From a bacterium (GTDB lineage: Bacteria; JAHJDO01): a stretch of 60,589 nt of DNA. Within the stretch, counting starts at the first letter, position 1, and every line of letters starts with the position of its first letter. Below the pieces are notes generated by a model. It saw nothing but the letters and a program-made list of their open reading frames with translations. It was not told where the DNA came from and did not search any database. Location: the NCBI GenBank assembly GCA_018812485.1, contig JAHJDO010000119.1, positions 1 to 60,589 of the forward strand, written 5' to 3'. The translations under genes and the position numbers were made by a program. This document shows positions 13,821 to 56,081 of the stretch, in pieces.

Positions 13821-13974
13821 AGATAAAGTTATCTAAAGTTTTCTCTCTGCACTCTGCAGAATTGTAGGAGCATTTGACTAAATCAATAAAAATTTGGTAT
13901 GTTTTGTAATAAGGAATCAAGAAAAAACGGATTCCATATATTAATTGTTGGACAAAATAAGGAGGGAAAGAATT

Positions 13975-15045
13975 ATGAGAATTCTGGGAATGACGATCGT
14001 TTGTTGTATGGTTGTATTTTTCTCCTGCACTGATGTGGCAACAGGAGACAATGCCCGCGAGGAGAAGGAAGCGAAAAACAGTCAAATCGGTGTTTATAAT
14101 GAATGGGGGCGATTGCGTGAAGCCTTTATCGGACAGGAAGATCAAACAGTTGAACCGGAGTATGTCCCGGCATTGAAGTGGGTAAAAAGTGTGTGGGATA
14201 TAGAAAATCTCCATAAATACGGTGGCCGTAAAACCAGTGACGTGCTTCCGGAATTGTCGAAACAGATACAACAGCAATTAAATACGATGGCGAGCATACT
14301 GAAAGCTGAGGGTGTGATTGTTCATCGCACCCAGCCCGTGCCATACCCGGAAGAGTTATCTTTTCTGGACAATATCCAGAAAGGGAACATGCTGTTCGGC
14401 GGAGCCGGCTACGTCCGGGTCATTGGCAATACTGTTTTGCTGATGAATTCATTCCGGTTACCCTTCCGTCGCAAACAGGTCTGGATGGTCAGGAGAGTAC
14501 TGGAGCCTTTGTTGAAGGACAGAGATGTAAGATACTGTGCAAGTCCACCTCCGTCACCTCATCATCTTGAACATGATATCTATATTGAAAACGGTGACAT
14601 CATGTTGGACGGGTTTAATGTTTATGTCGGTCTGTCCGGAAACGCTACCAGCGAAGAGGGGGCAGAGTGGTTACAGCAGTTTCTTGGTCAAGAATTCAAA
14701 GTTTACACAATCCCACTTAAATCCGATCTCTTCCACCTCGATTGGGTTTTATCGCTAAACAAGCCCGGTCTCATGACCTATTGTCCGGAAGCATTGATCG
14801 AGAAATTGCCGGAGCCTCTTCTCTCCTGGGATAAGATCGAGATAACCCTGGATGAGGCCCGCACTGCCGGAGCGAATAATCTCAGCATCAGTCCAGATAC
14901 GATCATCGTTTCATCTCAACACGAGCGGATTGCCAAGGAGTATGAAAAAAAGGGCATGCGGGTCATTCGAATTTCGGTTCCGACGACTATCGTATATGGC
15001 AGCGGCCCGCGTTGTTTAACGGGAGTATTGAGCCGAGACCACTAA
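13975..15045 (+). CDS. Secreted amidinotransferase-family protein (GC-rich, likely acquired)
   Basis: I start at the ATG at 13975 because AAGGAGG lies just upstream; this gives 356 residues. The N-terminus M-R-I-L-G-M-T-I-V-C-C-M-V-V-F-F-S-C reads as a signal peptide, possibly a lipoprotein. The body matches the amidinotransferase/arginine deiminase fold, with E-N-G-D (~206), F-H-L-D (~246) and a C-terminal catalytic Cys in G-P-R-C-L-T-G (~346), forming the Asp/His/Cys set. Family members move or hydrolyse an amidino group from arginine; export is unusual. It is the only plus-strand gene between 7.2 and 56 kb, and its base composition is visibly richer in G+C than that of its neighbours. An attC-like hairpin follows it, which suggests transfer as a cassette. 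Confidence 0.8.
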   Translation: MRILGMTIVCCMVVFFSCTDVATGDNAREEKEAKNSQIGVYNEWGRLREAFIGQEDQTVEPEYVPALKWVKSVWDIENLHKYGGRKTSDVLPELSKQIQQQLNTMASILKAEGVIVHRTQPVPYPEELSFLDNIQKGNMLFGGAGYVRVIGNTVLLMNSFRLPFRRKQVWMVRRVLEPLLKDRDVRYCASPPPSPHHLEHDIYIENGDIMLDGFNVYVGLSGNATSEEGAEWLQQFLGQEFKVYTIPLKSDLFHLDWVLSLNKPGLMTYCPEALIEKLPEPLLSWDKIEITLDEARTAGANNLSISPDTIIVSSQHERIAKEYEKKGMRVIRISVPTTIVYGSGPRCLTGVLSRDH

Positions 15046-15058
15046 AGAAATGTGCTAT

Positions 15059-15133
15059 GTCCAAACAAATCAGTTCACCTGACGGGGATTGGGCTGTCGC
15101 TTTATCCCTGCCAGTGAGTTCTAACGTTAGCGC
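15059..15133. repeat. attC-like imperfect inverted repeat after the amidinotransferase gene
   Basis: From 15059 a CCAAAC-AAATCAGTTCACCTG arm pairs imperfectly with CCTGCCAGTGAGTTCTAAC, ending in CTAAC/GTTAG (15121-15130). The order core-like site, arm, loop, arm, GTTAG core resembles an integron attC site, although the last core (GTTAGCG) departs from GTTRRRY. It could also serve simply as a two-way terminator between convergent genes. It overlaps the cobQ stop codon. Confidence 0.4.
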
Positions 15134-16671
15134 AATGAAAGCGTAGAAGAACGGGTGTTTGTTGGTTTCTTTAGACCTATTATCGAATATATCTTTTTCA
15201 TATCGATGCTGTTTCTTACTAATGAAGCTAGTTTATCGTACTCCTTTTCCTTATCGAACAAATCACTCTCGCCCACTTCCGGTAATTGCATCGACTCCCT
15301 CATGTTCTTTAGAAAAGCTCTTCTGAAATTATCATTATCAAAAATGCCGTGAATATATGTCCCCCAGACGTTTCCATCACAACTTTTTGTCCCGTCTTTT
15401 ATGTTAACCCCTTTGCCAGACCTCTCGAATATCTCAAAAATTGGTTCTGCCTTATTGCCTAATAGTGTCTTGCCCATATGTATCTCATAACCATGTATTA
15501 TGCTTGAGGAGAAAAGGTTATCATATGCTTTTATCTGATGAGTTTGTTTTTCTTTTTTTATTGTTGTAGTTATATCTAACAAACCCATTCCTTTTATGTT
15601 TGTTTTTTTAGTTTCAATATGATCCGGATCAATAATTTCTTTACCAAGCATTTGATAGCCGCCACATATACCAATTATAGAAACTCCCTTTCTGCTGTAT
15701 TCTTTTATTTTTGATGTAAAACCACTCTTTCTCAGAACTGCTAAATCATCTATTGTATTTTTACTACCGGGAATTATGATAACGTCTGCATGTTTAAGCT
15801 CATCAGGCCGCTTAATATACTCAAGCTCCACACCGTGTTCCTTCTCCAGCATATCAAAATCTGTAAAATTGGAAATGTGCGGCAAATAAATAACCTTTAT
15901 TCTTATATTATTTTTATCTTTCAAAGGAGAACTGCTTTTGTAAGGATCAATACATACAGAATCTTCTTCCTGAATCTTTATATCAGTAAAATAGGGAATA
16001 ACACCCAGAACAGGTTTCTGTGTTCTTTTCTCCAAAAATGTTATTGCAGGTTCCAAAAGACTCCTGTCTCCACGAAACTTGTTTATTAAAAATCCCTTAA
16101 CACGTTTTTTTTCTTTATTTGATAGAAGCGCTATAGTGCCAACAAGCCACGCGAAAACTCCACCCAGATTTATATCGCCGACAAGGATTACAGGCGCATC
16201 TATTTTTTCAGCAATACTCATATTCACAATATCATTTTTTCGTAGATTAATCTCTGCAGGAGAACCCGCTCCTTCTATTACAATTATATCGTTCTTTTCT
16301 GCAAGCCTGTTAAAGGCCTTTACCACTGTATCCATCAATTTTGGTTTATGCTTATGGTATTCAACACTATCCATATTTCCGACAGGTTTTCCCATAACAA
16401 TAACCTGACATCCCACATCCGATGACGGTTTAAGTAAAACAGGATTCATGTCGACTGAGGGCTCTATTCCACAAGCTTCTGCCTGAACAACCTGAGCCCT
16501 TCCCATCTCCTTACCATTTTTGGTTACAAAGGAATTTAAAGCCATATTCTGCGCCTTAAATGGCGCTACTTTATAACCATCAGCCGTAAATATTCTGCAC
16601 AGCGCAGCAGTAACTACACTTTTGCCCACATAAGAACCAGTTCCCTGAATCATTATTGTCTTTGCTTGCAT
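15127..16671 (-). CDS. cobQ: Cobyric acid synthase CobQ/CbiP
   Basis: 514 residues. It amidates four carboxylates of adenosylcobyrinic diamide using glutamine and ATP. The N-terminal dethiobiotin-synthase-like domain has G-T-G-S-Y-V-G-K-S (~10-18) and A-Q-N-M-A-L-N-S. The C-terminal type I amidotransferase domain has the nucleophile in G-I-C-G-G-Y-Q-M-L-G (~337-346) and Y-I-H-G-I-F-D (~437). The last dozen residues (T-N-T-R-S-S-T-L-S-L-R) run into the attC-like repeat, whose CTAAC supplies the stop codon, so the tail may be non-native. It is the last gene of the riboswitch-led block. Confidence 0.94.
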   Translation of the reverse strand: MQAKTIMIQGTGSYVGKSVVTAALCRIFTADGYKVAPFKAQNMALNSFVTKNGKEMGRAQVVQAEACGIEPSVDMNPVLLKPSSDVGCQVIVMGKPVGNMDSVEYHKHKPKLMDTVVKAFNRLAEKNDIIVIEGAGSPAEINLRKNDIVNMSIAEKIDAPVILVGDINLGGVFAWLVGTIALLSNKEKKRVKGFLINKFRGDRSLLEPAITFLEKRTQKPVLGVIPYFTDIKIQEEDSVCIDPYKSSSPLKDKNNIRIKVIYLPHISNFTDFDMLEKEHGVELEYIKRPDELKHADVIIIPGSKNTIDDLAVLRKSGFTSKIKEYSRKGVSIIGICGGYQMLGKEIIDPDHIETKKTNIKGMGLLDITTTIKKEKQTHQIKAYDNLFSSSIIHGYEIHMGKTLLGNKAEPIFEIFERSGKGVNIKDGTKSCDGNVWGTYIHGIFDNDNFRRAFLKNMRESMQLPEVGESDLFDKEKEYDKLASLVRNSIDMKKIYSIIGLKKPTNTRSSTLSLR

Positions 16672-16686
16672 AAGCCTCCCAATGTT

Positions 16687-17487
16687 CTACTGCAGAACTT
16701 TAGCTTTTTCTTCTTCTGAAACTACCAGTATGTATGGCTTAGAAGAAATAGGATTTTTTTCAACTACTACTGTCGTGTCGTAAACATCCTCAATAATCTG
16801 ATACGTTAATACTTCCTGTGGTGTGCCAACTTTGTGAATAAGTCCATTGTTAAGAAGAATTAATCTATCGCAATATTCGCTTGCCAGATTAAGATCATGC
16901 AAAACCACAATGACAGTAAGTCCATTTTGCCTATTTAACCTTCTTATAAGATCTAAAACTCTAATTTGATGTGTTATATCCAAATGAGCAGTAGGTTCAT
17001 CTAAAAGAAGTAGTCTCGGCTCCTGAGCAAGCGCGCGGGCAATAACTGCAAGCTGTCTCTCTCCACCGCTTAACTCTCCTATAAGCCTGTTCTTAAACCT
17101 GAGAGTATCCGTTAAAATCATCGCCTCTTCAGCAATCTCCTCATCGTGTTTACTTTCCAAAAACTGAAACTGCCTGCGGTAAGGAATCCTTCCCAGAAGA
17201 ACGAATTCTTCTATGGTCATATTATATCCTATCTCCGAACTCTGAGATACAAAAGCTACTTGTTTTGCGAATTCTCTAAATCCAAATTTTAATATATCCT
17301 TCCCTTCAAAAAGAACCTCTCCACTCCGAAGCTTAAGTATTTTAGTCATTGCCTTAAGCAGAGTTGTTTTCCCTGAGCCGTTGGGGCCAATTATACCCCA
17401 GAGACCTCTCTTTTGTATTCTGAAATTAATCCGGCTAAGTATAAATTTTGAGTCATACCCGCAGGTTAGATCTTTTACCTCAAGCAT
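16687..17487 (-). CDS. btuD: Corrinoid ABC transporter ATP-binding protein BtuD
   Basis: 266 residues. Walker A is G-P-N-G-S-G-K-T-T (~36-44), the signature is L-S-G-G-E-R-Q (~138) and Walker B is L-L-L-L-D-E-P-T (~158), followed by the switch V-V-L-H-D-L-N (~192). It belongs to the FecE/BtuD subfamily for iron siderophores, haem and cobalamin. The cobalamin assignment rests on the riboswitch, cobQ and DUF71 neighbours. Its ATG overlaps the btuC stop (TAATG). Confidence 0.92.
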   Translation of the reverse strand: MLEVKDLTCGYDSKFILSRINFRIQKRGLWGIIGPNGSGKTTLLKAMTKILKLRSGEVLFEGKDILKFGFREFAKQVAFVSQSSEIGYNMTIEEFVLLGRIPYRRQFQFLESKHDEEIAEEAMILTDTLRFKNRLIGELSGGERQLAVIARALAQEPRLLLLDEPTAHLDITHQIRVLDLIRRLNRQNGLTVIVVLHDLNLASEYCDRLILLNNGLIHKVGTPQEVLTYQIIEDVYDTTVVVEKNPISSKPYILVVSEEEKAKVLQ

Positions 17488-18506
17488 TATTGCTTGCCCC
17501 CTAATACAACTTGTTTTTTGCTAAGAAAATAGACAAAAATTGCTCCACCGATAATTCCTGTAATCACTCCGACAGGAAGTTCCAAAGGAGCAATAATTGT
17601 TCTGGCAAGGGTGTCGCAAAGTATAAGAAATGCCCCGCCCGAAAGAGCAGACGTAATAAGAAGTATACGGTGATCTCCTCCAACAAACATACGCATAAAA
17701 TGAGGCACAACCAATCCAACAAAGCCAATAACTCCCGCAACTGAAACCGCACAGCCTGTGAGTAAAGAGGCAAGTATAAACAGCAATCTCTTTGTCCTTT
17801 CTGTATTTATGCCTAAATGCAGAGCCTCTTCTTCCCCTAAAGCAAGCGCATTAAGCTCTGCACAAAATAAGTAAGATATGAATAAACCCAGGGCAGATAT
17901 TAAAACCACTGTCTTTATAAGAGCCAGATTCGGTTCTTCTAAAGAGCCCATTATCCAGAAAATAATTCCATGAAGATCCTCCGTGCGAGATATAGCCATA
18001 ATAAGCATAATTAGGGATGAGGAGATAAAACTTATCATTACTCCAGTAAGAAGAAGTCCCTGAATTTTTAATATGCCCTTTCTTGCGCTTAACGAGTAAA
18101 CAGCAAGAATTACAACGATCGCTCCCAGAAATCCGCTTGCCGGGATGGATAAGATTCCTCCTATTCTATTCAGTTTTAGGACGATATTTAAACACACACC
18201 CAAAGCTGCTCCGCCAGAAATACCCAGTGTATATGGCTCTACCAGAGGATTGCGAAACATGCCCTGAAGAAGTACCCCTGCAATGCTCAGAGCGCTCCCC
18301 ACTGCAAGACCCAGAATAATGCGGGGCAAACGTATGTCAAAAAGGATGCTGTATTCAGTAGTGCCTCTGCCTCCAAGAATTAAAGGTATGATTTTCTTAA
18401 AAGGTATACCAGCTGAGCCAACGCTCAATGAAAAAGCGCCTACTCCAAGAAGAATCCCGCATAAAATTAATATACAGATAAGCCAGCGAACTAATTTTCT
18501 ATTCAT
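17487..18506 (-). CDS. btuC: Corrinoid ABC transporter permease BtuC (FecCD family)
   Basis: 339 residues, about ten membrane helices. FecCD marks include R-L-P-R-I-I-L-G (~59-66), G-I-S-G-G-A-A-L-G (~97), the coupling region around A-L-G-E-E-E-A-L-H-L-G (~221-231), G-F-V-G-L-V-V-P-H (~262-270) and the C-terminal P-V-G-V-I-T. It moves the substrate across the inner membrane. It is coupled to btuF upstream and btuD downstream by overlapping stop/start codons. Confidence 0.92.
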   Translation of the reverse strand: MNRKLVRWLICILILCGILLGVGAFSLSVGSAGIPFKKIIPLILGGRGTTEYSILFDIRLPRIILGLAVGSALSIAGVLLQGMFRNPLVEPYTLGISGGAALGVCLNIVLKLNRIGGILSIPASGFLGAIVVILAVYSLSARKGILKIQGLLLTGVMISFISSSLIMLIMAISRTEDLHGIIFWIMGSLEEPNLALIKTVVLISALGLFISYLFCAELNALALGEEEALHLGINTERTKRLLFILASLLTGCAVSVAGVIGFVGLVVPHFMRMFVGGDHRILLITSALSGGAFLILCDTLARTIIAPLELPVGVITGIIGGAIFVYFLSKKQVVLGGKQ

Positions 18507-19375
18507 TATTCATCCTTTGCGTGGATCAATCCAACTATTTCTTCCAACACCTCAACGAAACTTACTGGTGTAGGGCTGCAAACTTTATCGGAATCAACAA
18601 TGTAAATTCTGTTGTTTTTTGCTGCGTTTAGAGTCTTGTACTTCTGCCACGTTTTTTTCTCCTGTTCACCTACAATGCCCATAGTCACAATAATTATCAC
18701 GTCAGGATTTTGCTCAAGAACCTTTTCCCTGCTGTAAAGACCTGTTTTTGCCCCAGAAGTAATATTTATCCCACCGGCAAACTTTATGAAGTCATTAACG
18801 AAAGAATCGCTTGTTACTGTAAATAAAGGTTTTGCTCCTACTTGAACAAAGACTTTAGGTTTAGGTAAATCTTTCACCATCTCAGTGATAGAATTCACCT
18901 TTTTTCTAGATTGACTAAGAATTCCCTCTGCCTCATTTTCTTTGCCAACAATTCTTCCTAGTTCTAAGAACTGATCGCAAATTTGGGAGAAACTTCCTGC
19001 AATAGAAAAAGTGATTACCCTTATTCCCAGATTTTTTAATTTTTCTACTTGCTTATGATTAGTCAGAGAAGTAGCCAGAACTAAATCCGGCTTAAGAGCT
19101 ATAACCTTTTCTAAACTTAATTTCGTTACTGTCCCAATCTTTTCTTTTTTCTGTGCTTTGGGAGGCTGCCTGCAATATATAGTGTTTGCCACCAGTCCAT
19201 CTTCTACTCCCAAAAGATAAAGTTCTCTGGTCAAAGAAGGACCTAATGAAATTATTCGTTGAGGGAAATTATTCTCCGCATGGGTTACAGAGCCGACATA
19301 CAAAAGAGCAAAAATTGTAAAAAAGCAATATAGCAATAATCCTAAATTTTTCAATCTATTTTTGGATACAAACAC
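18506..19375 (-). CDS. btuF: Periplasmic corrinoid-binding protein BtuF
   Basis: 289 residues with an N-terminal signal segment (L-L-L-Y-C-F-F-T-I-F-A-L-L-Y-V-G) and a TroA/BtuF-type two-lobe fold. It begins Q-R-I-I-S-L-G-P-S-L-T-R-E-L-Y-L-L-G, the usual BtuF opening, with A-L-K-P-D-L-V-L-A (~93) and the long bridging helix after. The GTG start at 19375 overlaps the radical SAM gene by 25 bases; a downstream TTG is the alternative. It delivers corrinoids to BtuCD. Vitamin B12 rather than haem or siderophore is inferred from the riboswitch and cob genes. Confidence 0.9.
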   Translation of the reverse strand: MFVSKNRLKNLGLLLYCFFTIFALLYVGSVTHAENNFPQRIISLGPSLTRELYLLGVEDGLVANTIYCRQPPKAQKKEKIGTVTKLSLEKVIALKPDLVLATSLTNHKQVEKLKNLGIRVITFSIAGSFSQICDQFLELGRIVGKENEAEGILSQSRKKVNSITEMVKDLPKPKVFVQVGAKPLFTVTSDSFVNDFIKFAGGINITSGAKTGLYSREKVLEQNPDVIIIVTMGIVGEQEKKTWQKYKTLNAAKNNRIYIVDSDKVCSPTPVSFVEVLEEIVGLIHAKDE

Positions 19376-20118
19376 TTAGCATGCTCCCTTTCTCTTCTCA
19401 TCCTTATATCTCCCCACATGGATGCAAAAGTATAGGTATTTGGAAGTATATTCTTCACTTTATTAGAGCACTTTTTTACATCTTCTTCTGTTGCATTTCT
19501 TCCATACAGACTATACGAGAGATACTTGTCAATTCTATATCTTAAATTTTTATTATATTTTGCAATATACTCTGCGATTTTTAAAATCTCTTCGCATTCA
19601 ATCAATCCTGGGATGTAAATTGATTCCATTTCAATCTTTCCACAGTTATGAAATTTCTCAAAATTTTCAAGTGTTTTTTTATTGCTCACCCCAGCATACG
19701 TCTTATGAATTTCGTCATCCAGTGCTTTTATGCTTAATGTCACTTCATCAACCATATCAATTATTTTTTCATTTAAAAGTCCGCCGTTTGTGACAAGTTT
19801 GAGCCATATTCCTTCGTCTTTTAATCTCGCGAGTATTTCAACAATATTAGGGTCTATTGTTGGTTCATGCCCCCCAAGATATGCCTTTTTAGCATTATTA
19901 TCTTTGAGAATTTCCACGACATCATCTAAATTTAGTTTTAATTTAGGTTTATCGGCCTCAGGATAAATTTTATCTAATTTTTTTATATCAGATGGAGAGA
20001 GGTGACTCTCCCACCCCCGCAATCTCACACAACCTTTGCATCTCCAATTACAGCCGAGAAAATTTAAGTATGCTGAATTATCTTTAAACTGCATAATATG
20101 ATAGATATTTGTTATCAT
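19351..20118 (-). CDS. Radical SAM protein of unknown reaction, B12 operon
   Basis: 255 residues. The cluster motif is C-N-W-R-C-K-G-C (C-X3-C-X2-C, ~23-30), followed by Y-L-G-G-H-E-P-T (~79) in the position of the SAM-contacting G-G-x-E strand, and L-V-T-N-G-G (~107). The size is close to activase-type radical SAM enzymes such as PflA-like proteins, with no extra cluster domain. It lies between DUF71 and btuF in the cobalamin-riboswitch block, so a role in corrinoid remodelling or in activating a partner is likely but unproven. Confidence 0.8.
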   Translation of the reverse strand: MITNIYHIMQFKDNSAYLNFLGCNWRCKGCVRLRGWESHLSPSDIKKLDKIYPEADKPKLKLNLDDVVEILKDNNAKKAYLGGHEPTIDPNIVEILARLKDEGIWLKLVTNGGLLNEKIIDMVDEVTLSIKALDDEIHKTYAGVSNKKTLENFEKFHNCGKIEMESIYIPGLIECEEILKIAEYIAKYNKNLRYRIDKYLSYSLYGRNATEEDVKKCSNKVKNILPNTYTFASMWGDIRMRREREHAKCLYPKID

Positions 20119-20132
20119 TTTTCTCTTCTATA

Positions 20133-20786
20133 TTATTTTTTGGCTACAAGCCCTAAAAACCAGTTTTTTCCTCTCAATATTTTCTTGCCTTCTACAAACC
20201 TCACTGACTTCCTAAAAATAGGGCCGTCATAGACAAATGTATGATATTCTCCATCTTCTCCGCAGATGTCCACATTGCCCAAGTTCTCAATATCTTTCAA
20301 AAATTCCTTATCTAGGCTTCTTCCCAACCAATCTTCCCCCAGAAACTCAGAATTAATAGCAACAATAATTGACTTGAAACCAGTTTCTATAAATTCATCC
20401 ATAATTTTCTTTCTTTTTTTCTTCCATAACGGAAATAGCGGTTTGATCTGCAATTCTTTACAAACTCTTTCTATCCAATCCCTATGCTCCTGAACATCAA
20501 TATCTCCAAAAACACCAGCATGAACATCTCTATCTTTAAGAACAGTAATGGCTCTTTTGAATTCTTCCTCATAACTTTTCCCAACAGCCTTTTGAATGAT
20601 AGGAATTCCGATTGCTTCTGCTTGCACTCTCAACAAATCTGAGCTAACTCCATGCGAACGAGAATGCTTGCCCTCTTCTGATATCATATTTAACAAATAA
20701 GAAACCTCTATATCTTTACTTTGCTTTGCCTCATAACAGGAAAGGCAACTATCTTTCCCTCCGCTCCATGAAACAAATGCTTTCAC
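20133..20786 (-). CDS. DUF71/COG2102 ATP-pyrophosphatase, B12-salvage type
   Basis: 217 residues from a GTG at 20786, chosen because AGGA lies 6 bases upstream and because the GTG overlaps the stop of the small gene before it (GTGA). A TTG 45 bases further up is the alternative. The PP-loop S-W-S-G-G-K-D-S-C (~6-14) and the motif G-E-D-G-E-Y-H-T-F (~180-188) define the Dph6-like family, which activates a carboxylate with ATP for amidation. A bacterial branch has been predicted by comparative genomics to work in B12 salvage, and this context agrees. Bacteria do not make diphthamide. Confidence 0.85.
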   Translation of the reverse strand: MKAFVSWSGGKDSCLSCYEAKQSKDIEVSYLLNMISEEGKHSRSHGVSSDLLRVQAEAIGIPIIQKAVGKSYEEEFKRAITVLKDRDVHAGVFGDIDVQEHRDWIERVCKELQIKPLFPLWKKKRKKIMDEFIETGFKSIIVAINSEFLGEDWLGRSLDKEFLKDIENLGNVDICGEDGEYHTFVYDGPIFRKSVRFVEGKKILRGKNWFLGLVAKK

Positions 20787-20941
20787 TTTATTCCTCTTCG
20801 TTTTGACAACCTGCCCTGCACAAAATTCCAAATTAAACCAGCAAAAAGGATCACAATACTACTAGAATAAGAACATAATGGACATACCCCTGCACAACCT
20901 CCAATTTTCCCTTTAGTAAGAAGATTTATTAAAATACACAT
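20783..20941 (-). CDS. 52-residue Cys-rich membrane peptide, not previously listed
   Basis: A short gene filling the gap between the HgdC-like and DUF71 genes. It starts 6 bases after the HgdC stop and ends with TGA overlapping the DUF71 GTG start, a classic coupling arrangement. The peptide opens M-C-I-L-I-N-L-L, then has K-I-G-G-C-A-G-V-C-P-L-C (C-x3-C-P-x-C, residues 12-23). A hydrophobic helix I-V-I-L-F-A-G-L-I-W-N-F-V follows, then a basic tail R-L-S-K-R-R. The four cysteines suggest metal or Fe-S binding at the membrane. I recognise no family. Confidence 0.6.
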   Translation of the reverse strand: MCILINLLTKGKIGGCAGVCPLCSYSSSIVILFAGLIWNFVQGRLSKRRGIK

Positions 20942-20947
20942 ATTTCT

Positions 20948-21724
20948 TCAACCATTTTTCCGAGATAAAATTGCTGCAGCGCCAAATGCCACTGTGAATT
21001 GAGGTATTGGAAAGACCTTAATATCTCTCATAAGCTCCTCTTGCATAGCTGATACCAGTCCTCTGTTTGCTCCCGGCCCTCCATCCAGATAGATTTCTTC
21101 TTCTAAATATAAACTTCCCGCAAGATCCGAGATTCGTCTAGCCACTGATTTATGAAGCCCGGCTATAATATCATGAGTATTTGTCTCCACAGACAAGAGA
21201 GACATTATCTCACTTTCGGCAAAAACAGTGCAAGTACTATTGATATGAGCCGGCGACTGACTAAGAAGCCCTAACTTGCCAAATTCCCGAACAGGAATAT
21301 TCAGTATCTTTTCAGCCATTTCGAAGAATCGACCTGTTCCAGCCGCGCACTTATCGTTCATTTTAAAATCTATAACTTTTCCGTCAGAAGAGAGCTTAAT
21401 AACTTTAACATCCTGTCCACCTATATTGATAACAGTCCTTGCTGTCTTATCACTCAGGATATAAGCTCCCGCGGCATTAGCAGAAATCTCATCTACTATT
21501 CTTCCTGCATTAGGAAAAAGACGTTTGCCATAGCCTGTTGCTGCTATACCTGCAAGGTCTTTTTCCCGGATTGAAAGAGATTCTAATCCTTCTTCTAAAA
21601 GCTTTTCGGAAATCTCAACATACTGTGGCATTGTGGGAAGCGCTTTTGCCCAGAGTAAATTGCATTTATCAATAAAAACAACCTTTATAGCTGCTGTTCC
21701 TAAGTCAATCCCAGCTGTTATCAT
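20948..21724 (-). CDS. HgdC/BadF-type ASKHA ATPase, activator of the HgdB-like protein
   Basis: 258 residues from the ATG at 21724; AAAGGAG lies upstream, while the earlier in-frame start is a TTG in that site. The ASKHA fold shows A-G-I-D-L-G-T-A-A (~3-11), I-N-I-G-G-Q-D (~96) and D-G-G-P (~216). The bridging 4Fe-4S cluster ligands are in N-D-K-C-A-A-G-T-G-R (~119) and S-T-C-T-V-F-A-E-S-E (~158). In known systems the homodimer uses ATP to push one very low-potential electron into an Fe-S partner. The partner here is the adjacent HgdB-like gene. Confidence 0.9.
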   Translation of the reverse strand: MITAGIDLGTAAIKVVFIDKCNLLWAKALPTMPQYVEISEKLLEEGLESLSIREKDLAGIAATGYGKRLFPNAGRIVDEISANAAGAYILSDKTARTVINIGGQDVKVIKLSSDGKVIDFKMNDKCAAGTGRFFEMAEKILNIPVREFGKLGLLSQSPAHINSTCTVFAESEIMSLLSVETNTHDIIAGLHKSVARRISDLAGSLYLEEEIYLDGGPGANRGLVSAMQEELMRDIKVFPIPQFTVAFGAAAILSRKNG

Positions 21725-21741
21725 ATTTTTATGCGCTCCTT

Positions 21742-22983
21742 TCAACAGAGTGTTTCTCTGAAAGCTTCCAGCCTGATAAGAATATTTTGTCTGTCTTCGT
21801 GCGAATAATCCGTCTCTATTTTTATAAAGTGATACCCGTTTTCTTTAATCATTTTCTCAAAATAAAAACTTTCTATATCATATGGATGGCATCCTTTTAA
21901 AATATGATAGATTACACCTTTTATGTTATGGATGCGCATTGTATCCAGAATATTCTTTGCCCGTCTGTAGTTGTCTGCAAAACTTGGGCAGCTACAGGAA
22001 AGCTGGTATCTCTCTGCCAGCGTCTTGAGAATGCCATGCTCTGAATAATCATCACAAATCGTTGCGCCAGTCAAATTTCTCTCCGAAGTGCATAATTCAT
22101 CTCCAGCAATGAACATTCCCGCTTCCTCAATCAATTCCGAAATTTTTAGATTGGGAAAGAAAACAGGTGAGCCGGTAAGAAATACATCCGGATTATTTTT
22201 CTTTTTGGGCACGTTGTAATTTTTGAGAACCTGTTTAACCTTTTCCGTCCACGATTCAACGTTGTCCAGCATAAAAGCATTCGCTATAATAATGCTCCAT
22301 GTGCCTGAAATAGCCCCTCTCCGTCTTAATTCAATCAACTGCCCCAATACTTGCCACGCACTCATGTATTTTTTTATGGATGAGCTAAGTTGGCGGCGGT
22401 TAAGCCGCCTGCCTGCGTGAACTTCCAGCACTTTTTTTAGTTCATATACTTCTTGTATCCATCTTTCTCTACCTCTTTCACTTTCTTTGATATGCGGCAG
22501 TTCCATGATGTGTATGGAATTGGCTTTATCTCCTATTATTTCAGGCAGTTTGGCGTTCCAGTCGCAGGTGGTAGGTATAACTATTAAATCACAGAGTTTC
22601 TCCATGGATTCGTCAAGATAAAAGGAACTGAGACACGATTTTATAATAGGACATGTCAAAGACGGAACACGGCCTGAAGAAAGCCTTTGAATAGCCAACG
22701 ATCCGCTGCACAGCCTGAATGGATGAAACCCCAATGCGTCAAAGAGTTCCAGAGGAACCTGTACGCAGTAAAGACCAGCAAGAGGCTTATTAAATCTCTC
22801 CTTAAATTTTTGTGGATAAATACCCAGGGAAAGTATCTCAAGAAAATATTCAAACTCCGAAGAGAAATCATCCCTTTCCCTGAGAGACATAAGTTCAATA
22901 TCGTGCTCACACTGAATGTCTTTCTTTACCTTTCGCAGTAACCGCTCTTCCATATCTTTTCTGGAATAAGTTTCCCGATTCAT
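21742..22983 (-). CDS. HgdB/BcrC-like 2-hydroxyacyl-CoA dehydratase family Fe-S protein
   Basis: 413 residues from the ATG at 22983 (GGAAAG upstream); an in-frame start 30 bases earlier overlaps the previous gene. The fold matches the D-component family: G-F-H-P-F-R-L-C-S-G (~117-126), P-T-T-C-D-W-N (~170), S-C-S-C-P-S-F (~337) and L-K-G-C-H-P-Y-D-I-E-S (~370), giving cluster-binding cysteines. Only one such subunit is present, whereas dehydratases and benzoyl-CoA reductases use two. This, plus its B12 operon, argues against acyl-CoA chemistry and for reduction of another substrate, perhaps a corrinoid. Confidence 0.82.
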   Translation of the reverse strand: MNRETYSRKDMEERLLRKVKKDIQCEHDIELMSLRERDDFSSEFEYFLEILSLGIYPQKFKERFNKPLAGLYCVQVPLELFDALGFHPFRLCSGSLAIQRLSSGRVPSLTCPIIKSCLSSFYLDESMEKLCDLIVIPTTCDWNAKLPEIIGDKANSIHIMELPHIKESERGRERWIQEVYELKKVLEVHAGRRLNRRQLSSSIKKYMSAWQVLGQLIELRRRGAISGTWSIIIANAFMLDNVESWTEKVKQVLKNYNVPKKKNNPDVFLTGSPVFFPNLKISELIEEAGMFIAGDELCTSERNLTGATICDDYSEHGILKTLAERYQLSCSCPSFADNYRRAKNILDTMRIHNIKGVIYHILKGCHPYDIESFYFEKMIKENGYHFIKIETDYSHEDRQNILIRLEAFRETLC

Positions 22984-22987
22984 AGAA

Positions 22988-23929
22988 TTACTTTCCAAAC
23001 AATTTGCCGACATATTTTCTTGACGAAGAAAAAACCTTCCACTTTAAAAATTTAACAGAGAGAGCATTATCCTGCGGACAGGCTTCCACACACTTAAAAC
23101 ACTCCATACAGTCCTGAGTAAGCACGTTCTCTTTTTCTTTCTCTAAATGTACCTGTCTTATATTCATAGGACATACCCGCTGGCAGTTGCCGCAGCCAAT
23201 ACAGGCATCCACTTTCTTTTTAAGCTTAACGAATCCAATGTTGTCAAAAAGGCTAATAAGAGCAAGCAGAGGACAGAACATACAAAAAAAACGATCCTTA
23301 AAAATCATTCCTATTAAAATACTCCCTGCCAGAACCATAGACAATACAGTCATGGTAATAGTTACTGGATTGGTAAGGTCAATTGCAAACTTGGAAAAAT
23401 CTCCCACAAACAGAGGCATTAATGGCTTAGCCGGACATATCTGACAAAAGGGAAGTGTGAAATCTCCATGAAGACTAGCGTTCCCGATAAGGACAGGAAC
23501 AACTATAAGATATACAAGAAATATATACTTAATTGGTTTTAATTTATCTCTTAATCTCCATGAAAATTGCGACTCTCTAATCGAAAGTTTCTTTCTTAAC
23601 CAGGTAATCCAGTCCTGCAAAGTACCAAAGGGACATATCCATCCACACCAAGTCTTATTTAGCAGAATAGCCAGTATGAAAAACCCAAGAAACATCTTCA
23701 AAAATTTCAGACCATACATGCTAAAATAGAGATGGAAAGGCATTTCCATGCCACATTGAGAACGCTGAAGAACCATTAAATAGCAGGCTCCCAAGAATCT
23801 ACCTATATAAGGACAGGAAAATACAGGAAGAAAATGCCCTAACTTCAGGTTTATGCCGAGATAAGCAGCGTAGGTTAACAGAAAAAAACTTATGATCTGA
23901 ATCAAAAAACGCAGCCTGTAAACCCTCAT
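22988..23929 (-). CDS. NapH/CcoG-like membrane polyferredoxin
   Basis: 313 residues with about five membrane helices. It has the membrane-side cysteine motifs W-C-G-W-I-C-P-F-G (~93), C-Q-I-C-P (~161) and F-C-M-F-C-P-L (~213-219). The C-terminal domain has two 4Fe-4S binding runs, C-I-G-C-G-N-C-Q-R-V-C-P (~240-251) and C-M-E-C-F-K-C-V-E-A-C-P (~274-285). NapH-like proteins pass quinol electrons across the inner membrane. Here it could feed the HgdC/HgdB pair encoded next. Its ATG overlaps the preceding stop (ATGA). Confidence 0.88.
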   Translation of the reverse strand: MRVYRLRFLIQIISFFLLTYAAYLGINLKLGHFLPVFSCPYIGRFLGACYLMVLQRSQCGMEMPFHLYFSMYGLKFLKMFLGFFILAILLNKTWCGWICPFGTLQDWITWLRKKLSIRESQFSWRLRDKLKPIKYIFLVYLIVVPVLIGNASLHGDFTLPFCQICPAKPLMPLFVGDFSKFAIDLTNPVTITMTVLSMVLAGSILIGMIFKDRFFCMFCPLLALISLFDNIGFVKLKKKVDACIGCGNCQRVCPMNIRQVHLEKEKENVLTQDCMECFKCVEACPQDNALSVKFLKWKVFSSSRKYVGKLFGK

Positions 23930-24810
23930 ACCTGGAACTTTCTCCTTCTTACAGCAATAATAATAAATGTAACAGCTATTGTTCCAGCGAAAATACTGCC
24001 ACCAAGAATAAGATTTCTACTTCCAAATCTGGAACGATGGAATAAAAGCGTATATGAAGATTTATAAATTATATTTCCTTCCGTTTCCTCTGCTAATATT
24101 ACAGTCTGTTTGTATGCCGTTAATCCTTTTTGCCTTAATTTTTTATCATCAGACGATATATAAACAAAATTCCCTTCGTCATTGGTCTCTACATCTATAG
24201 GATTTTTATTCTCATCAGCTATATGAATCTTTTTTTTACATAGATGGTTTTTATCAAATAAAGGTGTCAATTTAACATGGTTTCCTGTCTGGGGCCAGCA
24301 TGAATGTTCCGGAGCAATACATATTTCAAACCGATCGCTAATCTCATCAGATAAAACAGGTTCTATCTCTTTCTCTTTGAATGGAGAATGTCCAAAGAGA
24401 AGGAAGGATGCCTTTGCAAGATAATTGCATTCTACTCCCTTAAAATTTCTTTTTCCCTTGACCAGGACTGTAACACAATTTGTTTTCAATGAATTGATTC
24501 TAACAAAGGATGTTTTTTTATCTTCTTCTATATCCGCTCCATAGAAGATATTTTCTCCATTCTCATTTTTCTTATTCAATGTATAAAATACTTTAATATC
24601 TTTCAGTCCTGAGACATCTCCCTTCCTATCAGGGAATCTTCCATAATAAATAGACAAAGGCTGTGTCACAGATCCATTCTTCTCTTTAATCTGCTTCCCA
24701 TATTCAACCCAGAGATAATCATTTTTTGAAGAGAGAGTATAAGCGCTTGTATTGCCTATAAGAAAAAACAATAAGACAAAAATAATAATTGGAAGTAATT
24801 TCTTTTCCAT
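23926..24810 (-). CDS. Exported, membrane-anchored DUF4198-like protein
   Basis: 294 residues. A signal peptide (I-I-I-F-V-L-L-F-F-L-I-G-N-T-S-A-Y) is followed by an extracytoplasmic beta-rich domain. A K-L-T-P-L strand with I-D-V-E-T-N-D-E-G-N-F (~206-216) resembles the Ig-like half of DUF4198 proteins, a family linked in other bacteria to nickel and cobalt uptake loci. A C-terminal membrane helix (I-F-A-G-T-I-A-V-T-F-I-I-I-A) and R-R-R-K tail follow. The family assignment is tentative. Position between the PilZ and NapH genes suggests a periplasmic part of the same system. Confidence 0.6.
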   Translation of the reverse strand: MEKKLLPIIIFVLLFFLIGNTSAYTLSSKNDYLWVEYGKQIKEKNGSVTQPLSIYYGRFPDRKGDVSGLKDIKVFYTLNKKNENGENIFYGADIEEDKKTSFVRINSLKTNCVTVLVKGKRNFKGVECNYLAKASFLLFGHSPFKEKEIEPVLSDEISDRFEICIAPEHSCWPQTGNHVKLTPLFDKNHLCKKKIHIADENKNPIDVETNDEGNFVYISSDDKKLRQKGLTAYKQTVILAEETEGNIIYKSSYTLLFHRSRFGSRNLILGGSIFAGTIAVTFIIIAVRRRKFQV

Positions 24811-25424
24811 TATTTCTTCCGCCAGACAACTTCAAGATCATAATAAGAAATTTGCTTATGGCATTTTGGACAGATTACTATTCTCTCTTCATTCATTTCT
24901 TCAGGGATATCCAGAAATGCATATTCAGTGCTGTAAGATGTATGAACGCACATTGGACATTTTAGTTTTTCTGTGGCGTATTTGCTGACAGTCCTTGCAT
25001 GAGCTATATCCCCTATCTTTGGAGCGCTTAAAATACCAACCAATATTATCGCCAGTACAGCAACTATTGTTGGCAGTAAAAAACTAGGAACTCTTCTCCA
25101 TACAGGATTTTCAAAACGCTGATATAATTTTTTAAAGAATTCTGTGGATTTGCTATCTCCCTGAAGCAGACGAATACCCGCTTTACAGCCAAAACCTGCT
25201 GTTCGCTCAGTCCATCTGACCTCTCCCTTAAATCGCATAGGTTTCTTTGCCTTATGAGTATATATTCTAAGATTTACCTTTTCCCCGATGTGGAGAAAGT
25301 TTCTCAACCGTATTCCTATACCGCGTTTGGAAAAATCCTGCAGAGTAGCAACCTCTTTACCCAATTCTACTCTAGTCTTTTCCAGAGAAAATCTTTTATG
25401 TCTTCTTTTATTTTCACTACCCAT
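24810..25424 (-). CDS. PilZ domain - membrane helix - zinc ribbon protein
   Basis: 204 residues in three parts. Residues 1-100 are a PilZ domain with R-R-H-K-R-F (~6-11) and D-F-S-K-R-G-I-G-I (~29), the two parts of a c-di-GMP site. Residues ~112-135 are a membrane helix (F-L-L-P-T-I-V-A-V-L-A-I-I-L-V-G-I-L). The C-terminal part has C-P-M-C (~157) and C-P-K-C-H (~185), a zinc ribbon. I know of no characterised protein with this layout. It follows the pseudopilin gene by 5 bases. Confidence 0.75.
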   Translation of the reverse strand: MGSENKRRHKRFSLEKTRVELGKEVATLQDFSKRGIGIRLRNFLHIGEKVNLRIYTHKAKKPMRFKGEVRWTERTAGFGCKAGIRLLQGDSKSTEFFKKLYQRFENPVWRRVPSFLLPTIVAVLAIILVGILSAPKIGDIAHARTVSKYATEKLKCPMCVHTSYSTEYAFLDIPEEMNEERIVICPKCHKQISYYDLEVVWRKK

Positions 25425-25429
25425 GATTA

Positions 25430-26257
25430 TTAATCCGGTTCATGATGTCCATAGAGTTTATTTGCAACTGCTGGGTCAGTGCTATCCTCCCCAATCCAGC
25501 CTATATTAACTGATTCATAATCCCTGCCATACATAGTTCGCGAATAGGACATCCTCTCGCTGGTGATATGCCCATCACACCATACAACATTTGCCAAGCC
25601 GTTATGCCTGAAATGCATAGATGGAGAAAGTTGATTCCAACTAACACCACCTATAGTTTTGTAATATGGGGCGCCCAAATCATAATTTTCCACAATCGCT
25701 CCGCTTCTAATTCCTGCAGTATCAGATAAAATAACAGTTTCGGAAGGATTCTTTATGTCCGAATCTTTATGTTGTTTGTAGAACCACTGACTACTTCCTA
25801 GATTACCTCCAACAAACTGTTTATTGTATCCGTAACCTCCACTTGCAGGTTGATATGCTGTTTTACTAAACTGTTTAAAATTGGGGCATGTTTTAATTTC
25901 ACCCATTTTTAGATAGGAATAGATAGGACTACCTGTAAAATCAAGCTCTCCTTCTGCTGTGTACTGTGCTCCTGTCCAGAATATTTGTGGTCCGTTTGGA
26001 TAGGGATCTCCCTTACTCAAACCGCCGACATAGTTAGTACAATCAGAACAGAGCGGATAATATCCGTCATTATCATTTTTGTACATCTCTATTGCCAGAA
26101 AAATCTCTTTCAAGTTAGAGATACATACTGTCTGCCTTCCTTTTTCCCTTGCCTTTGAAAGCGCAGGAAGAAGGATTGATGAGAGCATGGCTATTATTGC
26201 TATCACAACCAAAAGCTCTAAAAGTGTAAACCCTTTTTTGTTCTTTCTTGTTACCAT
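25430..26257 (-). CDS. Pseudopilin with H-X9-DG domain, first gene after B12 riboswitch
   Basis: 275 residues. The type IV pilin-like N-terminus is K-K-G-F-T-L-L-E-L-L-V-V-I-A-I-I, with prepilin peptidase cleavage expected after G9. The C-terminal signature H-N-G-L-A-N-V-V-W-C-D-G (~213-224) is H-X9-DG. Such proteins are numerous in Planctomycetes, Lentisphaerae and Omnitrophota and form surface or periplasmic filaments of unknown function. Being the first gene behind the cobalamin riboswitch and terminator, its expression should rise when B12 is scarce. A GGGGAAAAG ribosome site precedes the ATG. Confidence 0.88.
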   Translation of the reverse strand: MVTRKNKKGFTLLELLVVIAIIAMLSSILLPALSKAREKGRQTVCISNLKEIFLAIEMYKNDNDGYYPLCSDCTNYVGGLSKGDPYPNGPQIFWTGAQYTAEGELDFTGSPIYSYLKMGEIKTCPNFKQFSKTAYQPASGGYGYNKQFVGGNLGSSQWFYKQHKDSDIKNPSETVILSDTAGIRSGAIVENYDLGAPYYKTIGGVSWNQLSPSMHFRHNGLANVVWCDGHITSERMSYSRTMYGRDYESVNIGWIGEDSTDPAVANKLYGHHEPD

Positions 26258-26287
26258 CTGTCTTTTCCCCTTTTTGTTAACTCATCC

Positions 26288-26322
26288 AAAAATAAAAAAG
26301 CCCAATCTTCGCAGATTGAGCT
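26288..26322 (-). terminator. Rho-independent terminator of the cobalamin riboswitch
   Basis: Minus strand 10-bp stem AGCTCAATCT / AGATTGGGCT with a GCGA loop (26299-26322), then a U-rich run. It lies between the aptamer and the pseudopilin start, the expected expression platform for transcriptional control. Confidence 0.85.
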
Positions 26323-26334
26323 TTCCATTATAAA

Positions 26335-26462
26335 AACTTCCCCTTTCCACGAAGGTACTTACCTAAACAGGCAATGGTCCGGGCTTTCCCAAAATTTTCG
26401 GGAATTACCGTTGCGGGACAGCGCCCAGAATCTCACTGGGACTTCCTTTGCCTCTCCGGCTA
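26335..26462 (-). promoter_or_regulatory. Cobalamin (adenosylcobalamin-type) riboswitch aptamer
   Basis: On the minus strand the conserved elements appear in order: GCCGGAGAGGCAAAGGAAGT, a CCCAG...CTGGG hairpin, GCGCTGTCCCGCAACGGTAA, and the B12 box AAAGCCCGGACCATTGCCTG. This is the canonical cobalamin aptamer core. Ligand binding should favour the terminator just downstream and shut off the pseudopilin-to-cobQ block. Confidence 0.92.
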
Positions 26463-26499
26463 AAAACTAATTTTCAAAAGAACGTTCTAAACTTGCTGA

Positions 26500-26527
26500 A
26501 TTATAACACTATTAATTCATATGTCTA
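26500..26527 (-). promoter_or_regulatory. Promoter of the cobalamin riboswitch transcript
   Basis: Minus strand TAGACA (26522-26527), 16 bases, TATAAT (26500-26505). It lies between the feoB stop and the aptamer. Predicted transcription start is near 26493. Confidence 0.7.
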
Positions 26528-26545: not shown

Positions 26546-28252
26546 TTAAAGAATAAGATTAAGCATTCCTCCTACTATCAATACAGCCGCAATCATAATT
26601 GCTGATGCTTTGAGCATATCTACAAATCCCAACTCCTTTACCAATGTACTGAAAGTAGCTATACATGGAAAATACATTGTCAAGACTATACTGGCTATTA
26701 TCAGCTGCTTCAAATTAAGGGCTAAAGGCGCTAACATTCCAACAGCCACATCTTTACGCAGGAAACCAACTAATAGCGCTCCTATTGCCTCTTTTGGCAG
26801 TCCAAAAATTCCAGAAATAACAGGAGCAGTATATTTCCCCACGAATTGGATTATGCCCAATGTATAAAGTATGTTTACTATAAATACTCCCAAAAGCACA
26901 AAAGGGATCGCTTCTTTAATAAACCACTTCGTGCGAATCCATGTTTTTTTCAGCAGATGTGTTAGGTAAGGTCTTCGGTAAGGTGGTATTTCCATAAATA
27001 TCTCCGGTGACGTTCCGCTTACCAGGTGAGCCATTAAGATTCCCAGTACCAGCCAGACCACAAAGAGTGTTCCGTAAACAACGCCTAGTCCATATACCAT
27101 GTGCTTGCCCATCAGTCCCACCACCATGGCTTGCAAAGCCGCACATGGTACTGCAATAGATAACAGAGTCACCGCGATAAATCGCTCTCTTCTGGTAGCT
27201 AATATCCTGGTGGAGAGAATGCCGGGAACATTGCAGCCCAATCCCAGCATCATAGGTATTATTGCCAGACCATGTATACCTAAACGGTGCATCAGTCCGT
27301 CCACCAGAACAGCTAATCTGGGCAGATAGCCACAATCTTCTAAAACTGACAACATTACATAAAAAGCAAAAACATAAGGCAATACTGCTCCTATTGGAAC
27401 AAACAGACCTGTAGTCAATAGTCCAAAGGACTGACCATAATCTATTTTACCCTCTATCAGCTTACCAATTAAGATATCGTGGATAATTCCATCAGATCCC
27501 AATATTGCAGACAATTTCAGTAATAATGGTGTCCATAATTTTTCAAAAACAGGTTCAAATACATAACCTATAAGTCCTTCCCCTATAAATCTTATAATTT
27601 TGAAAGTGAAGAATAATATCACTAGGGCTAGTGGAATTCCGAAGACAGGAATCGTTGAAATATCTCCTAATCTTTCCATGAAGGTATGGTCATGGTGACT
27701 TAATTCCTGAACTTGACCTATAATATCTCCTATAACATGCCATTTTTCTTTATCTTCGTAATCAAATTTAGAAAATTTTGCCTCTTTCAGTCTCTCAGTC
27801 AGTTTTTTGATTCCCTCGCCTGTAACTGCGCAGATAGGGACACAGGGAACACCTAACATCTCTTCCAGCTTTTGAAAATCAATGGTAATCCCTTTATGCT
27901 TGGTTTCATCCCAGAAGTTAAGCGCTATTATCATAGGTTTTTTCTTTTTTATTAATTGCATTGTGAGGTTAAGACTTTTTTCCAAATTGGTGGCATCAAC
28001 AACATTAATAACTATATCTCCCCCCTTAAGCATTCTAACTGCAACTTCTTCTGCTTTATCACCAGCATCTAAGGAATAAGTTCCCGGCACATCTATTACC
28101 ATCATCTCTTCTTCATCTATCCGCATTTTACCCTGTGTAAAATCAACTGTTGTACCTGGATAGTTGGAGATAATAACATTTGCACCCGTTAGTCTATTGA
28201 AAACTACACTCTTACCGGTGTTGGGATTTCCCATAAGCAATATTTTTTTCAT
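26546..28252 (-). CDS. feoB: Ferrous iron (or other divalent metal) transporter FeoB, short form
   Basis: 568 residues from the ATG at 28252, which overlaps the feoA stop (ATGA). The N-terminal G domain has G-N-P-N-T-G-K-S (~8-15), D-V-P-G-T-Y-S-L (~55) and N-F-W-D (~114). The core follows with Gate-like repeats (G-C-N-V-P-G-I and P-C-A-A-L-Q) and about eight membrane helices. It is shorter than the ~770-residue E. coli protein. Fe(II) is the standard substrate; its coupling to cobT makes cobalt worth considering. Confidence 0.92.
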   Translation of the reverse strand: MKKILLMGNPNTGKSVVFNRLTGANVIISNYPGTTVDFTQGKMRIDEEEMMVIDVPGTYSLDAGDKAEEVAVRMLKGGDIVINVVDATNLEKSLNLTMQLIKKKKPMIIALNFWDETKHKGITIDFQKLEEMLGVPCVPICAVTGEGIKKLTERLKEAKFSKFDYEDKEKWHVIGDIIGQVQELSHHDHTFMERLGDISTIPVFGIPLALVILFFTFKIIRFIGEGLIGYVFEPVFEKLWTPLLLKLSAILGSDGIIHDILIGKLIEGKIDYGQSFGLLTTGLFVPIGAVLPYVFAFYVMLSVLEDCGYLPRLAVLVDGLMHRLGIHGLAIIPMMLGLGCNVPGILSTRILATRRERFIAVTLLSIAVPCAALQAMVVGLMGKHMVYGLGVVYGTLFVVWLVLGILMAHLVSGTSPEIFMEIPPYRRPYLTHLLKKTWIRTKWFIKEAIPFVLLGVFIVNILYTLGIIQFVGKYTAPVISGIFGLPKEAIGALLVGFLRKDVAVGMLAPLALNLKQLIIASIVLTMYFPCIATFSTLVKELGFVDMLKASAIMIAAVLIVGGMLNLIL

Positions 28253-28491
28253 GGTTGCTCTATCTCCACCCATATTTTCTGAGCCATACCAAAACCTACA
28301 GCAGCCCTGGTATTCCCATGGCTGACAATAACAGGTCCTCTCATTAATTGCCTGCTTACTTTCTTAATTGTTTTGCCAACTCTTAAACCAAGCGCATCAA
28401 GCCTGCAATTCATCCCGGCTCCACCGTCTATTTGAACTATTTTCCCATTTTGACCAGACCTCATATTAACTAAAGAAATCAGTCCATTCAT
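28249..28491 (-). CDS. feoA: FeoA-like SH3-domain protein
   Basis: 80 residues. The FeoA pattern is present: [12 protein letters not shown] (~13-24), [14 protein letters not shown] (~30-43), then the strand [15 protein letters not shown] (~52). FeoA binds FeoB from the cytoplasmic side and supports transport. Its ATG overlaps the cobT stop and its stop overlaps the feoB ATG, so the three are translationally coupled. Confidence 0.9.
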
Positions 28492-55909: not shown

Positions 55910-55925
55910 AAACTAGCTCAAACTC

Positions 55926-56076
55926 TATCTTCTTCCATCCAGACTATACTGTCGGCCACGGTCTCTCACCGTATCAATCCTGTCCCTGCACAATTACAGA
56001 AACCAGAACTTGCGGGCTTTCTTCAACAACAAAAAGATTTACCGCCGGTAGGGATTCTCACCCTGCCCCGAAGACA
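55926..56076 (-). promoter_or_regulatory. FMN riboswitch (RFN element) upstream of ribD
   Basis: On the minus strand the conserved blocks occur in order: GGGCAGGGTGAGAATCCCTA, CCGGCGGTAAA, AAGCCCGC, GGTGAGA...CCG, and GCCGACAGTATAGTCTGGAT ending GGAAGAAGAT. This is a complete aptamer. FMN binding should promote the terminator and lower expression of the rib genes and whatever is co-transcribed with them. Confidence 0.97.
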
Positions 56077-56081
56077 TGTTT

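Follow-up and report, generated by a model that had tools for sequence, protein, structure and literature searches.

The window analysed here is a stretch of 60,589 nucleotides, positions 1 to 60,589 of contig JAHJDO010000119.1 (GenBank assembly GCA_018812485.1), from a bacterium of the GTDB lineage JAHJDO01. We examined a block on its minus strand in which an adenosylcobalamin (AdoCbl) riboswitch precedes genes for a pseudopilin, a four-gene reductase cassette (g3-NapH-HgdB-HgdC) and the uptake and salvage of corrinoids, the vitamin B12 compounds. Listed from the promoter-like site downstream, the features are as follows.

26500 to 26527, minus strand: promoter-like site TAGACA-16-TATAAT with a TG extension, 11/12 match
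26329 to 26473, minus strand: AdoCbl riboswitch (RF01482), found at this position in each of four sister species
26295 to 26326, minus strand: riboswitch terminator of 14 pairs, its sequence kept in all four species
25430 to 26257, minus strand: pseudopilin (N_methyl and DUF1559, by domain search), whose orthologues in two sister species follow the same leader
24810 to 25424, minus strand: protein with a PilZ domain, a transmembrane helix and a CxxC zinc ribbon (by domain search)
23926 to 24810, minus strand: g3, first gene of the cassette, a predicted envelope protein with an N-terminal signal or anchor, a beta-rich domain and a C-terminal helix
22988 to 23929, minus strand: NapH-type membrane protein carrying two [4Fe-4S] motifs of the cytoplasmic type, along with other conserved CxxCP motifs
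21742 to 23013, minus strand: HgdB, a double-cubane-type reductase of a B12-operon branch that retains all seven cysteine positions of the family
20948 to 21745, minus strand: HgdC, an ATP-dependent [4Fe-4S] activator of the ASKHA family (BadF/HgdC)
20783 to 20941, minus strand: open reading frame (ORF) of 52 residues, hydrophobic, with CAGVCPLC, between HgdC and DUF71
20133 to 20831, minus strand: DUF71/COG2102 protein (Diphthami_syn_2), of the B12-linked branch by its neighbourhood
19351 to 20118, minus strand: radical SAM protein resembling pyruvate formate-lyase activase
18506 to 19375, minus strand: BtuF-like periplasmic corrinoid-binding protein (Peripla_BP_2)
17487 to 18506, minus strand: BtuC permease (FecCD)
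16687 to 17487, minus strand: BtuD ATPase
15127 to 16671, minus strand: CobQ cobyric acid synthase

The 12 clear genes downstream of the leader, from the pilin gene to cobQ, are separated by gaps of no more than 15 bp or overlap, except at a 138-bp stretch that holds the doubtful 52-residue ORF. We found no terminator-like sites between the genes of the block; the minus-strand sites within it all lie inside coding sequence. An original prediction, made from the letters of this DNA, had described a promoter, a cobalamin aptamer and a terminator followed by a tight run on one strand from the pseudopilin gene to cobQ. The RF01482 match, the 14-pair terminator and the short gaps bore this layout out, no internal terminator splits the block between genes, and domain searches confirmed N_methyl/DUF1559, PilZ, NapH-type ferredoxin, HGD-D, BadF/HgdC, Diphthami_syn_2, radical SAM, Peripla_BP_2, FecCD, ABC ATPase and CobQ. 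The promoter-like site (26527-26500) is the top-scoring one of the region, in which the total number of such sites is that expected by chance (48 versus 47.9).

Of four further genomes of the genus, one is only 62% complete; we compared the genome of the window (G000) with the other three, which are sister species (G002, G003 and G004). The window riboswitch scored 50.5 bits against RF01482, above the gathering score of 50 (E-value, 2.5e-6), and its counterparts in G002 to G004 lie at the same place and scored 46 to 50 bits. RF01482 had a single match in each of the four genomes, always at the B12 locus, and the leader, which takes in the aptamer, the terminator and the ribosome-binding site, is near-identical in all of them. 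For comparison outside the genus, we used 74 B12 loci, mostly from Omnitrophota. A phylum-wide BtuC search covered 285 genomes, from which 60 neighbourhoods were taken, and a profile search for the HgdB branch covered 384 genomes of the phylum of G221, one of two Omnitrophota genomes described below, and 385 across the domain (~770 in total). An earlier genome scan with HgdB alone had given no match, because the branch is rare; the BtuC scan succeeded instead.

The best-supported new element of the block is a double-cubane-type reductase cassette, probably dedicated to B12. Besides the window, the cassette was found, with its four genes in the same order, in two Omnitrophota genomes. In G221 (locus L129), whose proteins are 44, 65, 67 and 72% identical to g3, NapH, HgdB and HgdC of the window, it directly follows btuR in an operon that begins with a cobalamin riboswitch and cobS-cobC-cobU-cobT. 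In G312 (locus L192), it follows btuD and is itself followed by a cobalamin riboswitch and genes for a TonB receptor, ExbB, ExbD and TonB. The ~770 genomes yielded no members of the HgdB branch beyond these three, all of which (3/3) lie in B12 operons. Members scored above 850 bits and the next homologues below 230 bits, and in the HgdB tree the three were monophyletic (100/100) on a long branch within a nine-member group. Recurrence of this kind suggests that the cassette very probably acts on corrinoids. Also within the nine-member group, loci L193 to L196 carry a periplasmic protein, NapH, an HgdB-like protein and HgdC together, with no B12 genes nearby, and look, from gene content, like an undescribed membrane-linked double-cubane reductase system.

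HgdB contains an HGD-D domain (PF06050, 253 bits), and its seven double-cubane cysteines (C83, C102, C121, C150, C308, C342 and C375) are shared by nearly all of 21 sequences. Among solved structures, HgdB is closest to the double-cubane cluster proteins (DCCPs) of Carboxydothermus (7yyl and 6eno; E-value, ~4e-44), with which it aligns over 347 residues with the seven cysteine positions kept. As in the Carboxydothermus system of DCCP and ATP-dependent reductase, the HgdB and HgdC genes adjoin and HgdC belongs to the same activator family. HgdB differs from the Carboxydothermus protein in sharing only ~28% identity with it, in lying on a long branch, in having extra clade-specific cysteines (127, 340 and 423), in being joined to NapH and g3 and in its placement in B12 operons. 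Its score against the NCBIfam equivalog NF040772 was 245.5 bits, below the cutoff of 350, and so we call it DCCP-like rather than filing it as that equivalog. HgdC carries both cluster-cysteine motifs, KCAAGTGRF and STCTVFAESE; its closest solved relatives are the activators of 2-hydroxyacyl-CoA dehydratases. The third gene of the block, g3, had been predicted to be DUF4198-like, a label that we dropped, since no Pfam family matched it even at an E-value of 10. A structure model of g3 was rejected as too poor (predicted local distance difference test [pLDDT] score, 46), and Foldseek returned weak beta-sandwich matches only, none below 0.001.

The most surprising result was the exchange of a pseudopilin for a TonB cassette behind one fixed leader. 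The same ATG behind that leader starts a pilin gene in three species and an ExbB gene in the fourth, G004. After this start codon, G002 has pilin-btuF, with the two genes overlapping by 4 bp; G003 has pilin, a 333-residue PilZ protein, thyX and btuF; G000 has pilin-PilZ-g3-NapH-HgdB-HgdC-DUF71-radical SAM-btuF; and G004 has ExbB-ExbD-TonB-TonB receptor-DUF71-btuF. On either side, G002, G003 and G004 have the same flanks: upstream, where the contig reaches, FeoA-FeoB, and downstream btuC, btuD and metH, to which G003 and G004 add cobQ. The TonB-ExbBD-BtuB type of import thus occupies the same position behind the same leader in G004 and is also found in most Omnitrophota B12 loci, whereas it is absent from the window locus, where the pseudopilin gene uses that start codon. 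The middle stretch of BtuF diverges into a G002/G003 type and a G000/G004 type.

The pseudopilin has the N-terminal prepilin signal (PF07963, 37 bits) and a DUF1559 domain above the cutoff. Its H-X9-DG C-terminal domain scored below the cutoff (15.3 versus 19 bits), with the H-x9-DG motif itself visible, as in other pseudopilins of the DUF1559 family (PF07596, SBP_bac_10), which a planctomycete paper calls a solute-binding family (PMC2754498). It differs from the other DUF1559 pilins of its genome in lying under a B12 riboswitch and in being orthologous between species. The pilins at the B12 loci of G003 and G002 matched it with 217 and 190 bits over the greater part of their sequences; the remaining pilins of the genus (~30 matches in G000) scored at most 83 bits, mostly over the N-terminal helix alone. 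Judged by these alignments, the G002 and G003 proteins are orthologues of the window pilin and not random pilins. No pilin orthologue was found in G004.

A Plug search found no TonB receptor belonging to G000, G002 or G003; the numbers of Plug domains were 0 in G002, 0 in G003, 1 in G000 and 2 in G004. We rejected the single G000 Plug protein as a genuine receptor because its contig, C151 (loci L046 and L232), also bears a type IX secretion system sorting domain and has a guanine-plus-cytosine content of 0.42, against 0.38. On C151 the Plug protein is SusC-like and adjoins the protein with the sorting domain, which scored above the cutoff; the contig is likely to be a contaminant from another phylum in the G000 assembly. 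G000, G002 and G003 each have one member of the ExbD family, which is TolR-like and lies beside a TolQ-like gene (and a TolB-like gene where the locus reaches), and G004 has a TolR-like ExbD plus two more that adjoin its TonB receptors. A receptor and an ExbD of its own, the pair taken to mark TonB-dependent B12 import, were thus not found in G000. Outside the genus, a TonB receptor on the same strand, between -6 and +8 kb of btuC, was counted in 61/74 B12 loci. Several of the other 13 are truncated at contig ends, the receptor of L135 lies slightly past the distance limit, and none of the 13 has a pilin inside the B12 operon. Of 14 other genomes to which the BtuC scan led, 13 have Plug proteins somewhere in the genome. 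A genome without a Plug match contains an Omnitrophota B12 operon (L070) with an asparagine-synthase-like gene between the riboswitch and DUF71.

In the species tree, (G002,(G004,(G000,G003))), the three pilin-bearing species include the earliest branch. The comparison suggests that the pilin was ancestral in the genus and that G004 swapped it for the TonB cassette. The distributions of the reductase cassette and the pilin are independent. The predicted single corrinoid system made of the first eight or nine genes was upheld in part in its link to corrinoids, through independent recurrence, and not in its unity, the modules being separable. Five of the first eight genes were found beside btu or cob genes or a B12 riboswitch elsewhere: the pilin gene in G002 and G003, and g3, NapH, HgdB and HgdC beside btuR or btuD and a B12 riboswitch in the two Omnitrophota genomes. 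PilZ fared weakly and the 52-residue peptide found no support.

We propose that the block forms a single operon, repressed by B12 and made up of three modules. BtuFCD, CobQ and DUF71 would import and remodel corrinoids as usual. In the second module, NapH would take electrons from the membrane, HgdC would spend ATP to drive electrons one at a time into the double-cubane cluster of HgdB, and HgdB in turn would supply the adenosyltransferase BtuR with Co(I) by reducing the cobalt of the imported corrinoid; this path is suggested by the protein families and by the position beside btuR. In the third, the type IV pilus/type II secretion machinery of the cell would assemble the pseudopilin, which would take over the outer membrane step of TonB-ExbBD and the receptor, a proposal that we base on the swap behind the leader, the lack of an own TonB receptor and the PilT-like retraction ATPases among the type IV pilus/type II ATPases of these genomes. 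We consider this reading, mechanism included, evenly poised between right and wrong. Among its parts, ATP-driven cobalt reduction would be the likeliest job of the cassette, and the formation of Co(I) by it is a serious candidate that we place just short of an even chance. We lean slightly toward a role for the pilin in corrinoid acquisition. A direct role as corrinoid carrier, standing in for a TonB receptor, is doubtful, and the specific version, in which the pilin would capture corrinoid at the cell surface and pull it through the secretin to BtuF, is unlikely.

Several observations weigh against this proposal. The exchange of pilin and TonB rests on four incomplete genomes (90 to 96%), in which the link is a correlation and not proof, and support for the tree position of G004 is moderate (85/91). 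The ~30 other pilins of G000 mean that the one at the B12 locus could be a bystander, no cobalamin-binding feature was recognised in it, and its structure model was rejected as unusable (pLDDT, 34). The G221 and G312 cassettes are close (HgdB, 88%), leaving only two independent lineages. The cassette was not found in the three sister species, so members of this genus can use B12 without it. Relatives of NapH-HgdB-HgdC are also found at a distance from B12 genes, which makes the substrate of the HgdB branch a matter of inference.

It is quite possible, if not our preference, that the pilin is indeed a bystander, one of ~30 DUF1559/GspG-like pilins that happened to land behind the riboswitch, with the loss of TonB unrelated and corrinoid entering by another porin. 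The abundance of pilins in these genomes, the rapid evolution of this one and its want of an identified corrinoid-binding feature all fit such an accident. Chance accounts less well for a pilin that has stayed behind the shared leader, at an unchanged start codon, in three species, the earliest-branching one among them, for its 4-bp overlap with btuF in G002, and for the fact that G004, the only sister with ExbB-ExbD-TonB-receptor at that site, is also the one lacking a pilin orthologue.

For the cassette, the closest alternative to Co(I) formation is that it serves corrinoids in a step other than adenosylation, either removal of the upper ligand (decyanation or dealkylation of cobamides after import) or the supply of electrons for remodelling by the radical SAM protein or DUF71. 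Its company of uptake and salvage genes would suit this, as would its place in the window, between the uptake-side genes and DUF71/radical SAM and apart from btuR. We nevertheless judge it improbable: the G221 cassette stands directly after btuR, and the potentials reached by an ATP-driven double-cubane system are more extreme than those that ligand removal usually calls for. Alternative enzymes are often under the control of B12 riboswitches. A cassette with another substrate, forming a B12-independent route switched on by B12 limitation, would agree with the related cassettes outside B12 loci and with the unknown native substrates of DCCPs (PMC11971306) and is still distinctly unlikely, as both other cassettes sit amid uptake and assembly genes and not in a pathway with a B12-dependent counterpart.

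No biological role is known for double-cubane proteins (PMC11971306), and the confinement of the HgdB branch to B12 operons offers a concrete substrate to test for them. If cobalt reduction is the right reading, the cassette would place an ATP-driven form of it beside corrinoid salvage. The exchange behind the fixed leader is a natural swap experiment. Should the pilin do the work of the receptor, nutrients could cross the outer membrane without a TonB receptor, and jobs would be suggested for many DUF1559 pilins of related bacteria. We found no open-access paper that connects either pseudopilins or double-cubane proteins with the uptake of B12.

The remaining genes are more conventional; by neighbourhood, BtuFCD, CobQ, DUF71 and the radical SAM gene belong to the usual company of B12 loci. 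The combination of Peripla_BP_2, FecCD and ABC ATPase behind a cobalamin riboswitch identifies an importer, and BtuF scored 115 bits against the NCBIfam BtuF equivalog, below the cutoff of 234. DUF71 adjoins btuCDF in the window, in G004 and in 40/74 other B12 loci. This adjacency is a published hallmark of B12 salvage, a role already predicted for a DUF71 subgroup with an altered C-terminal EGGE/D-x-E motif (PMC3541065), and DUF71 is accordingly no part of an undescribed system, as had been supposed. The same applies to the radical SAM gene, a recurrent neighbour in ordinary B12 loci that adjoins DUF71 or btuF in 10 of the 74. The block shares btuFCD, DUF71, cobQ and the cobalamin riboswitch with the arrangement of PMC3541065 and differs in the insertion of the pilin, PilZ and the reductase cassette between riboswitch and btuF and in a radical SAM gene absent from the text of that paper. 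The true start of DUF71 probably lies at least ~20 bp inside the annotated ORF.

The 52-residue ORF, which overlaps that annotated start and had been counted as a member of the system, is doubtful as a gene. No homologue was found, and we rejected it as a conserved part because the L129 and L192 cassettes have no counterpart. PilZ was likewise rejected as a conserved part: the second gene of both G000 and G003 encodes a PilZ protein, that of G003 with the domain at its C terminus, and the two architectures differ and show no BLASTP similarity, so that membership of PilZ in the system is weakly supported. A pilin gene also lies just upstream of HgdB-HgdC in L185, on a non-B12 contig of G521.

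Around the block, FeoA-FeoB (26546-28491) lies between cobT and the riboswitch and is kept in the sister species. Between cobQ and btuR, the plus strand (13945-15045) encodes a secreted-looking protein with weak similarity to arginine deiminase. Among the cob genes is a GHMP kinase (31547-32452), perhaps an L-threonine kinase, with 46% identity to proteins in B12 loci L079 and L080. The window also holds a flavin mononucleotide riboswitch on the minus strand (55923-56079, 106 bits). A second strong cobalamin riboswitch of G000 (103 bits, on G000:C1, L044:1812-4221) lies ahead of genes for a Zn-dependent dehydrogenase and a TrpD-type phosphoribosyltransferase; the two may belong to a lower-ligand or alternative pathway under B12 control.

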